Part shown: positions 54,391 through 57,424 of the stretch, in pieces
Position numbering within the stretch: position 1 is the stretch's first letter
Layout: each line of letters starts with the position of its first letter
Assembly (NCBI RefSeq): GCF_014204715.1
Contig: NZ_JACHLY010000001.1
Location: 4,858,501 to 4,922,500 of the forward strand
Direction: 5' to 3'
Origin: Streptomonospora salina
GTDB taxonomy: Bacteria > Actinomycetota > Actinomycetes > Streptosporangiales > Streptosporangiaceae
DNA length: 64,000 nucleotides
The notes under the pieces: model-generated
Seen by the model: the letters and a program-made list of their open reading frames with translations, nothing else
Told to the model about the DNA's origin: nothing
Database searches by the model: none
Program-made: the position numbers and the translations under genes

Positions 54391-55485
54391 CTAGTGCCAC
54401 TCCGAGCGGATCATCTCGCGGTCGTCGAACATCAGGGCCCGCTCGGCCCGGTCGACGAGGCGTTCCAGGTCGGCGGCGGTCAGGCGCTTGCGGGCGAGGT
54501 AGAACAGCCGGGCCCCGCGCGGTACCTCCCGGGTCCAGGACGGGCTCAGCAGGAGCTCTCCCCGGTCGCTGAAGCCCAGTACGGTGGCGGCGTTCCACCG
54601 GCCCAGCGCCATCTGGAACTGGCCGTAGGTGCGTTCGGCCAGCGCGTCGGGCACGTCGATGGAGTAGCAGCCGCGGTCGTCGTGGCCCAGCAGCCGGTCG
54701 ACCACGCGGGACATGCCCTTGTCGTGCACCTCGGCGGCCAGCAGCCGCACGTCGTGCCGCGACACGCACCGGGCCTCCGGCGCGACGCGCGACATCGTGC
54801 GGGTGTGGGCGGTGTCGTGCAGCGCGACCACGATGTGGGCGCGGGGGGCGGCGTGGGCCGCGGCGACCGTGGTTTTCAGAGCTTCGTCGTCGTCGCGGGC
54901 GTCCACCAGCACCGCCGCCGCACTCGCCAGCCCCGCCCGCGCCAGGACGCCGTCTTCAGTGAGGTCGCCCCGGACGAACGCCACGTCGTCGCGGTGGGCC
55001 AGGGGATGAGCCTCGGCCTGGTCGGGCCAGGCGCACAGGGCGATCTGGTGATCCTCCTCGGCGGTGAGTCCGTCGACGATGCGTTCGGTGCGCGTGGGCG
55101 TGTACCCGAGCACGGCGATGTGCCCGCTGGACTTGACCGCCGCCCGTCCGTGCATGCGCAGCTCCTTGGCCTTGTCGAGCATCCGCGCCAGGCGGGTGAA
55201 CAGCATGGTGATCGTGACGATGCCGCCGACGATGACGTAGATGCCGATCCCGCGTCCGGCCGGCGTGCCGGGGTAGTGCTCGCCCGGTCCGGGGGCGGCG
55301 GGCGTGATCGTTCCCGCGAACCACCACCAGTAGGCTCCCGGTTGCACGACGGCCGAGCCGCGCGGCTCGACCCAGGCCATCAGCAGCCAGCTGCTGACGA
55401 ACACGAACATCAGCAGCCAGAGCGGAAGGGCCCAGGTGGCGCGGCGCCACATCCGGTCAACCAGGCGCCCCGGCCACAGCCGCAT
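54391..55485 (-). CDS. RCK-domain ion channel with atypical pore
   Basis: 364 residues. Helix 1 is at about 17-37, a pore-like WWWFAGTITPAAPGPGEHYP segment (53-72) precedes helix 2 (79-97), and then come an RCK/TrkA_N-type nucleotide-binding domain (GHIAVLGYTPTRTERIV onward) and a C-terminal TrkA_C-like region. The frame matches two-helix potassium channels, but the filter position reads APGPGE instead of TVGYGD, so K+ selectivity is doubtful. CASTOR/POLLUX-type channels also depart from TVGYG. Divergent from the BCCT gene. Confidence 0.8.
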   Translation of the reverse strand: MRLWPGRLVDRMWRRATWALPLWLLMFVFVSSWLLMAWVEPRGSAVVQPGAYWWWFAGTITPAAPGPGEHYPGTPAGRGIGIYVIVGGIVTITMLFTRLARMLDKAKELRMHGRAAVKSSGHIAVLGYTPTRTERIVDGLTAEEDHQIALCAWPDQAEAHPLAHRDDVAFVRGDLTEDGVLARAGLASAAAVLVDARDDDEALKTTVAAAHAAPRAHIVVALHDTAHTRTMSRVAPEARCVSRHDVRLLAAEVHDKGMSRVVDRLLGHDDRGCYSIDVPDALAERTYGQFQMALGRWNAATVLGFSDRGELLLSPSWTREVPRGARLFYLARKRLTAADLERLVDRAERALMFDDREMIRSEWH

Positions 55486-55753
55486 CGTGCACTCTTTCCC
55501 AGCGGAAGCGGGAAGGCCCGGATCACGCTGCTCGGTCGCTCAGCCGACGATCAACGGTTCGACGGTCGAGTCCTACCCCGAAGGCGAAGAGACGATTCCC
55601 GGCCCCGTCCGCCGGACGTGCCGGGAGGAGCGGCGAGCTATCGCGCACCGGCCGTGCGGGTACGGGTACGCATGGCGGCTGTCCGACACCGCCGTGCACG
55701 CGGTGTCGGGATTCTCCGCGCAGTGCACGGCGACAGCGGGAGCGTGGTCGAGG

Positions 55754-57424
55754 ATGCGGCAGTCGGCGCGGGGCGCGGCCAAGCCGGGGGTGTTCGTCCC
55801 GGCCGCCGTGGTCATCGCGGCGTTCGTGGCGTTCGCGATGGGGGCGCCCCACGTGGCGTTCACGTGGATGACCGCGGCCCACGACTGGATCGTGGCCTCA
55901 CTGAGCTGGTACTACGTGGTCGTCGTCGCCGGGTTCGTGGTGTTCGCGCTCTGGGCGGCCATGGGCCACACGGGAGACATCCGCCTGGGCCCCGACGACG
56001 AAGACCCCGAATTCGGGCGCGGATCGTGGTTTTCGATGCTGTTCGCCGCCGGAATGGGCATCGGCCTGATGTTCTGGGGTGTCGCCGAGCCCCTGCACCA
56101 CTTCGCGGGCGTCCCCAACCGCGCCTCGGGAGTGGACGGGCCGCCGGCGGAGGCCGCCGAGGGGGCTCTGGTGCAGACCCTGCTGCACTGGGGACTGCAC
56201 GCCTGGGCGGTCTATGCGGTGGTCGGGCTGGCGGTCGCCTACACCGTGCACCGCCGGGGCCGGCCGGTCTCGGTGCGCTGGGTGCTGGAGCCGTTGCTGG
56301 GCAGCCGGGTGAACGGTCCGGTCGGCGACGCCGTCGACGTGGCGGCGGTCGTCGCCACGGTGTTCGGGGTGGCGACCTCGCTGGGCCTGGGGGTCTCCCA
56401 GATCGCGACCGGTCTGGAAGTGCTGGAGCTGCTGGCGGCCCCGGGAACGGCGGCCAAGGCCGCGCTGATCGGCGTGATCACGCTGGCGGCGATCGTGTCC
56501 GTGGCTACCGGGGTGCACCGCGGGATCCGCGTGCTGTCGGGGCTGAACTTCTCGATCGCCGCGGTACTGCTGGTGTTCGTCGCCGTGGCCGGACCGACCG
56601 TCTTCCTGCTGCGCGAAGGGGCGCAGCTGATCGGGGCCTACTTCCAGAACATCGTCGCCATGAGCTTCGACACCGCCGCGACGGCCGGAGCCGGCGGCGC
56701 CGAGTGGCAGAGCTGGTGGACGATCTTCTACTGGGGCTGGTGGATCTCCTGGGCCCCGTTCGTGGGCGTGTTCATCGCCCGCATCTCCCGCGGGCGCAGC
56801 GTCCGGGAGTTCGTCGCCGGGGTGCTGATCGTGCCCACCGCCGTGACCCTGGTGTGGTTCACGGTGTTCGGCGGGAGCGCCCTGTGGCAGCAGGTGCGCC
56901 GCGGCGGGGACGCCTTCGCCGGGGGACTGATCGGCGCCGACGGATCGGTGTCGCAGACGGGTGCGCTGTATGAGCTGCTGGGCGGGCTGCCGTGGGGCGG
57001 TGCGGCGGTCGTGGTGGCCGTCGTCCTCGTGGCGCTGTTCTTCGTGACGTCGTCGGACTCCGGATCGCTGGTGGTGGACATGCTCGCCTCCGGCGGCGAC
57101 CAGGACCCGCCGGTGGGCAGCCGGATCTTCTGGTCGGTGCTGGAGGGCGCGGTGGCGGTCGCGCTGCTCACCGCCGGCGGGGACGACGCGCTGACCGCGC
57201 TGCGGTACGCGGCGGTCGTGGTGGCGCTGCCGTTCAGCGTGGTCATGATCGCCATGTGCGCGGCGCTGGTGCGCTCGTTCCGCCGGGAACGGCGCCGCCA
57301 GCTGCGCCTGCAGCGGGCGCTGCAGCGCGAGGAGCTGGCGGCGCAGGTGCTGGAGAACCTGGCCGGGGAAGGGCTCGTCGACACCCCGGGCGCCACCGGT
57401 GACACCCCCCGGAAGGACGGTTGA
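55754..57424 (+). CDS. BCCT family transporter (betaine/carnitine/choline type)
   Basis: 556-residue, 12-helix secondary transporter for quaternary-ammonium or related osmolytes. Family signatures are GMGIGLMFWGVAEPLHHF and FYWGWWISWAPFVGVFIARIS, with FFVTSSDSGSLVVDML near the C-terminus. The C-terminal cytoplasmic tail is Arg/Glu-rich (about residues 505-556) and may sense ionic strength as in BetP. The ATG at 55754 places the first helix correctly, although a longer frame exists upstream. Adjacent to a divergent channel gene, so an osmotic-stress theme is plausible. Confidence 0.9.
   Translation: MRQSARGAAKPGVFVPAAVVIAAFVAFAMGAPHVAFTWMTAAHDWIVASLSWYYVVVVAGFVVFALWAAMGHTGDIRLGPDDEDPEFGRGSWFSMLFAAGMGIGLMFWGVAEPLHHFAGVPNRASGVDGPPAEAAEGALVQTLLHWGLHAWAVYAVVGLAVAYTVHRRGRPVSVRWVLEPLLGSRVNGPVGDAVDVAAVVATVFGVATSLGLGVSQIATGLEVLELLAAPGTAAKAALIGVITLAAIVSVATGVHRGIRVLSGLNFSIAAVLLVFVAVAGPTVFLLREGAQLIGAYFQNIVAMSFDTAATAGAGGAEWQSWWTIFYWGWWISWAPFVGVFIARISRGRSVREFVAGVLIVPTAVTLVWFTVFGGSALWQQVRRGGDAFAGGLIGADGSVSQTGALYELLGGLPWGGAAVVVAVVLVALFFVTSSDSGSLVVDMLASGGDQDPPVGSRIFWSVLEGAVAVALLTAGGDDALTALRYAAVVVALPFSVVMIAMCAALVRSFRRERRRQLRLQRALQREELAAQVLENLAGEGLVDTPGATGDTPRKDG

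Follow-up and report, generated by a model that had tools for sequence, protein, structure and literature searches.

We describe a 364 amino acid protein of Streptomonospora salina that is placed by predicted fold and descent among the RCK channels of the two-helix MthK type, and in which the TVGYGD selectivity filter of its relatives is replaced by APGPGE on a lengthened pore loop. The altered filter is genuine and not a chance finding. The trait common to its carriers is a two-residue insertion together with the loss of TVGYGD, and not the PGPGE sequence as such, since PGPGE is private to the S. salina protein, its three nearest relatives carry AAGPGD and a second group carries SSGQQD. We favour, with a probability of about 0.5, the reading of a conducting, RCK-gated channel of the MthK kind with a remodelled filter, in which selectivity for K+ would have been lost.

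The gene lies on the reverse strand, at positions 54391..55485 of the window (the whole 64,000-nucleotide stretch of contig NZ_JACHLY010000001.1 that was analysed), and was characterized from its open reading frame with Pfam, AlphaFold2 and Foldseek. The AlphaFold2 model, a single chain like all our models and computed from a 45-row alignment, comprises a first transmembrane helix (TM1, residues 4-39, 55369..55476), a pore helix (residues 49-60, 55306..55341), a loop (residues 61-74), a second transmembrane or inner helix that continues into the RCK linker (TM2, residues 75-111, 55153..55263) and then, in the same chain, a cytoplasmic RCK domain, all encoded on the reverse strand. This last domain was recognized by Pfam as TrkA_N (PF02254, residues 155-233, 54787..55023) with 35.1 bits, above the cut-off of 23.8, and has the MthK fold, while the Ion_trans_2 match reached only 19.2 bits, under the cut-off of 22.5. 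When the model was compared with the PDB using Foldseek, the 13 best matches were all MthK chains (best E 4e-18), with Slo1 and GsuK ranking lower, and MthK was also the closest solved relative by sequence, over residues 53-281. The architecture claimed by the sequence-only reading of this DNA, namely two helices, a pore loop and an RCK domain with APGPGE at the place of TVGYGD, was borne out by Pfam, AlphaFold2, Foldseek and the alignment with homologues. The window protein shares with MthK, a Ca2+-gated RCK K+ channel, and with the actinobacterial TVGYGD homologues the two helices, the pore loop and one RCK domain per subunit, and its fold matches that of MthK over most of its length; it differs from all of them in lacking TVGYGD, in its two extra pore-loop residues and in its sub-threshold Ion_trans_2 match. 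Sequence comparison indicates that its ancestors belonged to a family of RCK channels bearing TVGYGD.

In the alignment with TVGYGD homologues, to which the window protein is 40-58% identical, APGPGE occupies the filter place (residues 64-69, 55279..55296, reverse strand), and the pore loop is longer by two residues, which MAFFT places at A57-G58 (55312..55317, reverse strand), so that APGPGE is no six-for-six swap. Three prolines (62, 65 and 67) lie in or beside the filter. G66 and G68 are kept throughout the window group, hereafter the GPG group, and are followed by an acidic residue; in these GPG forms both glycines of GYG are thus retained and the changes are confined to non-glycine positions, presumably ones at which the KcsA backbone adopts a conformation that could accommodate proline. 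The inner helix remains similar to that of canonical relatives (YVIVGGI). These conserved glycines, the acidic residue after them and the conservation of both pore and inner helices would suit a channel that is still K+-selective, in which a different sequence keeps the ring of carbonyls with the G-x-G glycines in place. We consider this improbable, because none of the threonine, valine and tyrosine positions is preserved, the loop is two residues longer, the second glycine is lost in the SSGQQD form, and TVGYGD is retained by nearly all the relatives read (see below). The K+ channel signature TxVG(Y/F/L)G, which is absent from the window protein, is moreover deemed obligatory for K+ channels in the available text of a review (PMC12332018).

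The distribution of the altered filter is narrow. In the window's own taxonomic family, homologues at E <= 1e-40 were found in 36 of the 341 genomes searched, three of which, in addition to the window's, carry the AAGPGD filter (G011, G023 and G108); within the window's genus, five other genomes yielded no homologue at E <= 1e-3. When named genomes were scanned with a pair of short peptide patterns, by which members without those peptides are missed, three loci were returned, from Nocardiopsaceae bacterium YIM 96095, Haloechinothrix alba and H. aidingensis. The first, a strain that we take to be Halostreptopolyspora alba, is apparently the same locus as that of G011, and the two Haloechinothrix proteins carry SSGQQD with the same two-residue insertion, preceded by T-P-A as in the window protein. 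Homologues passing the threshold of E <= 1e-40 were present in 64 of the 346 Haloechinothrix-family genomes searched, themselves a sample of a larger group. A search of a plasmid collection gave no match, no report of such a filter appeared among the papers listed by searches of the open-access literature, and none mentioning strain YIM 96095 was found there.

Altogether, TVGYGD was read in 107 of 113 distinct loci and another filter in the remaining six, a count with which a recount by script agrees. The 113 loci comprise 72 from a first set (77 rows less five repeats), 40 fetched further and the second G755 copy (L106); L143, L164 and L167 were counted as TVGYGD, their motif being split by a misplaced gap in the 134-row alignment with repeats, and the count leaves aside two Haloechinothrix-family matches that do not cover the pore, as well as weaker matches. 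The insertion is common to the six odd-filter members, one in each of six species-level genomes with the window's included, and is absent from the TVGYGD members read. G023 holds one altered and one canonical copy, and G755 holds two canonical ones. The homologue check that the sequence-only reading had proposed for the PGPGE filter therefore came out divided: an altered filter with the insertion is seen again in five further species-level genomes, which excludes a solitary mutant among homologues with TVGYG, the finding that would have overturned that reading, while PGPGE itself is confined to the window. Among the weak matches, six longer RCK-type proteins (L011, L012, L016, L021, L027 and L028, with open frames of 464-704 aa) have pore stretches without TVGYG, e.g. 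LSPGKIASDTG or LDPGTMGGDEG, and in our estimation resemble CASTOR/POLLUX-type channels.

Separate Ion_trans_2 channels above the cut-off were identified in the odd-filter genomes. Every host of the altered protein has a further channel of this kind, one with TVGYGD, which lies elsewhere in G000 (the window genome), G011, G108, G699 and G700 and corresponds to L025 in G023. In the window genome it is L109 (G000:C1:2169551-2169787), the one Ion_trans_2 match above the cut-off, whose TVGYGD filter is KcsA-like. None of the six altered genes was recovered among the Ion_trans_2 matches above the cut-off when their own genomes were searched, which, together with the sub-threshold score of the window protein, indicates that altered-filter channels are probably under-annotated.

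Phylogenetic trees built with the pore columns left out, from sets of 72 and 34 rows, both recovered an eight-member clade (support 100/99) in which the six altered proteins are joined by L071 from G755 and L004 from G038, both canonical and 57-58% identical to the window protein. The window protein and its three GPG relatives form one group (support 100/99 and 100/100), and the Haloechinothrix proteins branch outside the two canonical members with moderate branch support. The best tree requires two filter changes. Holding the six altered proteins together cost 7.5 log units in the 34-row subset of the 72 rows (p-AU 0.114), a result that neither establishes nor rejects one common origin for the odd filter. 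The insertion common to both filter groups favours either one origin or an exchange of the pore segment. L004 (G038:C141:5492-6560) has a frame break near codon 282, which could reflect recent pseudogenization or a fault in the assembly.

That canonical sister is itself frame-broken, and the window pore is the most divergent of the four-member GPG group (P65, E69), both of which could be expected if the window gene were decaying or erroneous, its filter being a drifted relic or the product of a sequencing or frame error. We regard this as very improbable and largely refuted by the recurrence of insertion and altered filter in six genomes and by the pattern of substitution. The frame contains no internal stop, GC at the three codon positions (0.73/0.51/0.93) is similar to that of adjacent genes, and pN/pS between the window gene and its three GPG relatives is 0.48-0.54, and lower inside the filter.

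Within the GPG group, the six pairwise comparisons give a pN/pS of 0-0.19 over filter codons 56-72, compared with 0.19-0.54 for the whole gene. Between the window gene and L002, 10 synonymous and 2 nonsynonymous changes fall in these codons and 110 and 156, respectively, elsewhere (one-sided Fisher p 0.005). The remaining five pairs point in the same direction, none of them significantly alone (p 0.10-0.31); the pairs are non-independent, with branches in common, and the contrast involves few codons. In nine canonical pairs chosen as a control, filter pN/pS was 0-0.28, two values being undefined because changes were lacking. Over codons 56-72 the two Haloechinothrix genes do not differ from each other, and are therefore uninformative on selection. 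On these thin statistics, the constraint on the altered filter seems similar to that on the TVGYGD filters. Such constraint alone is no proof of conduction; structural constraint by itself could also give a low pN/pS in the pore loop.

Precedents for conduction through filters other than TVGYGD come from two systems. NaKTs of Tsukamurella paurometabola, with the filter LPMGNGPLSP, conducts non-selectively and is activated by Ca2+, and its authors report, in the available text, that no other channel with a similar filter was found (PMC5052707). It is likened here to the window protein by filter and architecture: as that paper describes it, NaKTs is a two-helix channel of actinobacterial origin whose proline-rich filter retains G-x-G (PMGNGP for TVGYGD). 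The prolines, however, fall at different positions: at KcsA T75 and D80 in NaKTs, by the swap made in that paper, and at V76 and Y78 in our alignment of the window protein, which has A64 in place of the T75-position proline that forms part of the backbone Ca2+ site of NaKTs. The suggestion of a new pore type in the sequence-only reading is weakened by this published proline-rich filter. The second precedent, CASTOR, has RCK domains, lacks TVGYG and conducts Ca2+ selectively, as stated in the accessible part of PMC6697748. CASTOR, POLLUX and DMI1 are, like the window protein, RCK-ring channels without TVGYG, and differ from it, as far as that text describes them, in having two tandem RCK domains, four predicted transmembrane helices, the filter AD(S/A)GNHA and a location in the plant nuclear envelope; the window protein has 364 aa, a single MthK-like RCK unit and no Asp in the filter stretch. 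As judged from sequence, then, the window protein bears neither the K+ channel signature nor the filter features specific to NaKTs or CASTOR.

As inferred from descent and fold, two-helix subunits would assemble into a tetramer whose cytoplasmic RCK ring gates the pore, and the remodelled filter would still conduct yet no longer select K+, the ions passed being probably Na+ and K+ and perhaps Ca2+. The main rival reading, to which we give appreciable but clearly lesser credence, is that of a non-conducting sensor, in which the filter is permanently shut and the RCK ring serves as a membrane scaffold responsive to ligands or ions, perhaps regulating the transporter encoded next to it. TVGYGD is wholly gone, and the filter exists in two forms (A[A/P]GPG and SSGQQ), the second of which, GQQ without a second glycine, could be a filter freed from conduction; in the window protein, prolines 62, 65 and 67 could stiffen or close the filter, and their positions are unlike those of NaKTs as far as the latter is described. 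The filter loop is also uncertain in AlphaFold2, with a pLDDT of 56 over residues 61-70 of the window model, whose overall mean is 84.5, and of 59 for the loop in the Haloechinothrix model, both being models of altered-filter proteins. These points all weigh against conduction, as does the structural explanation of low pore-loop pN/pS; a filter about as constrained as canonical ones weighs against the sensor. A conducting channel without K+ selectivity is favoured over it because the precedents of NaKTs and CASTOR conduct.

The neighbouring gene bears on both readings. The divergent osmolyte transporter noted in the sequence-only reading proved to belong to the BCCT family (PF02028, 583 bits), that of BetP, and lies on the forward strand at 55754..57424 (start inferred at the M at 55754, within an ORF from 55436). 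A four-genome alignment of the intergenic stretch between the two genes (55486..55753) showed its transporter-side end to align among the four GPG genomes; on the channel side (55486-55630) the window's stretch exceeds those of the three relatives by about 140 bases. A divergent BCCT gene stands beside the channel in 4/4 GPG genomes, the relatives' copies being 71-73% identical to the window's, and the other neighbours examined vary: DUF3237 in the window, an AMP-binding enzyme and MFS at L099, a permease and an epimerase at L100 and a gamma-glutamyltranspeptidase at L101. This constant adjacency among varying neighbours speaks for a sensor, as does the reported response of BetP, a BCCT protein, to cytoplasmic K+ (PMC10710835, available text), which makes a functional link between BCCT and a cation channel plausible. 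No BCCT gene, however, was found within the 6.5-8 kb flanks of the channel in either Haloechinothrix genome, where the neighbours include an ABC ATPase, an ScfRs regulator, isocitrate lyase and malate synthase, so that the clade as a whole cannot have the regulation of a neighbouring transporter as its function. None was found nearby in the two canonical clade members either (L071, and L004 on a short contig), and among 106 loci, most canonical ones with flanks of about 1.5 kb, a BCCT match near the channel occurred only at loci from the four GPG genomes.

At the genome level, a BCCT relative of at least 57% identity is present in all eight clade genomes and, among 60 relatives searched, only in the four that hold a clade member. 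A BCCT match at E <= 1e-130 occurs in 52 of the 346 Haloechinothrix-family genomes, 24 of them within the 64 having any channel of this protein family (about 10 expected; Fisher p 4e-7, confounded by kinship), an overlap that may derive from kinship or shared habitat. Only three of the 52 carry a clade member, for which co-occurrence as evidence of a clade-wide shared pathway was mostly rejected; of the association between channel and BCCT, all that holds is the adjacency of the two genes in four genomes.

For the conducting channel that we favour, ion balance would be adjusted alongside osmolyte uptake by the BCCT neighbour. The pairing with an osmolyte transporter, together with the description of Haloechinothrix species as halophilic (PMC6113628, available text), suggests a putative role of the altered channel in osmotic adaptation. 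More speculatively, and in our view rather unlikely in full, one RCK-gated lineage may have rebuilt its K+ filter into two sequences on a common longer loop, A[A/P]GPG[D/E] and SSGQQD, with selectivities unseen in known RCK channels, and in the GPG genomes may have acquired a dedicated BCCT partner for which it would supply or drain the driving cation or set a cytoplasmic ion signal sensed by transporters of this type. The TVGYG filter is a standard example of a near-invariant functional sequence, and because intact TVGYGD relatives and two replacements share one clade, filter swaps between natural relatives could test what is required for conducting and for selecting ions.
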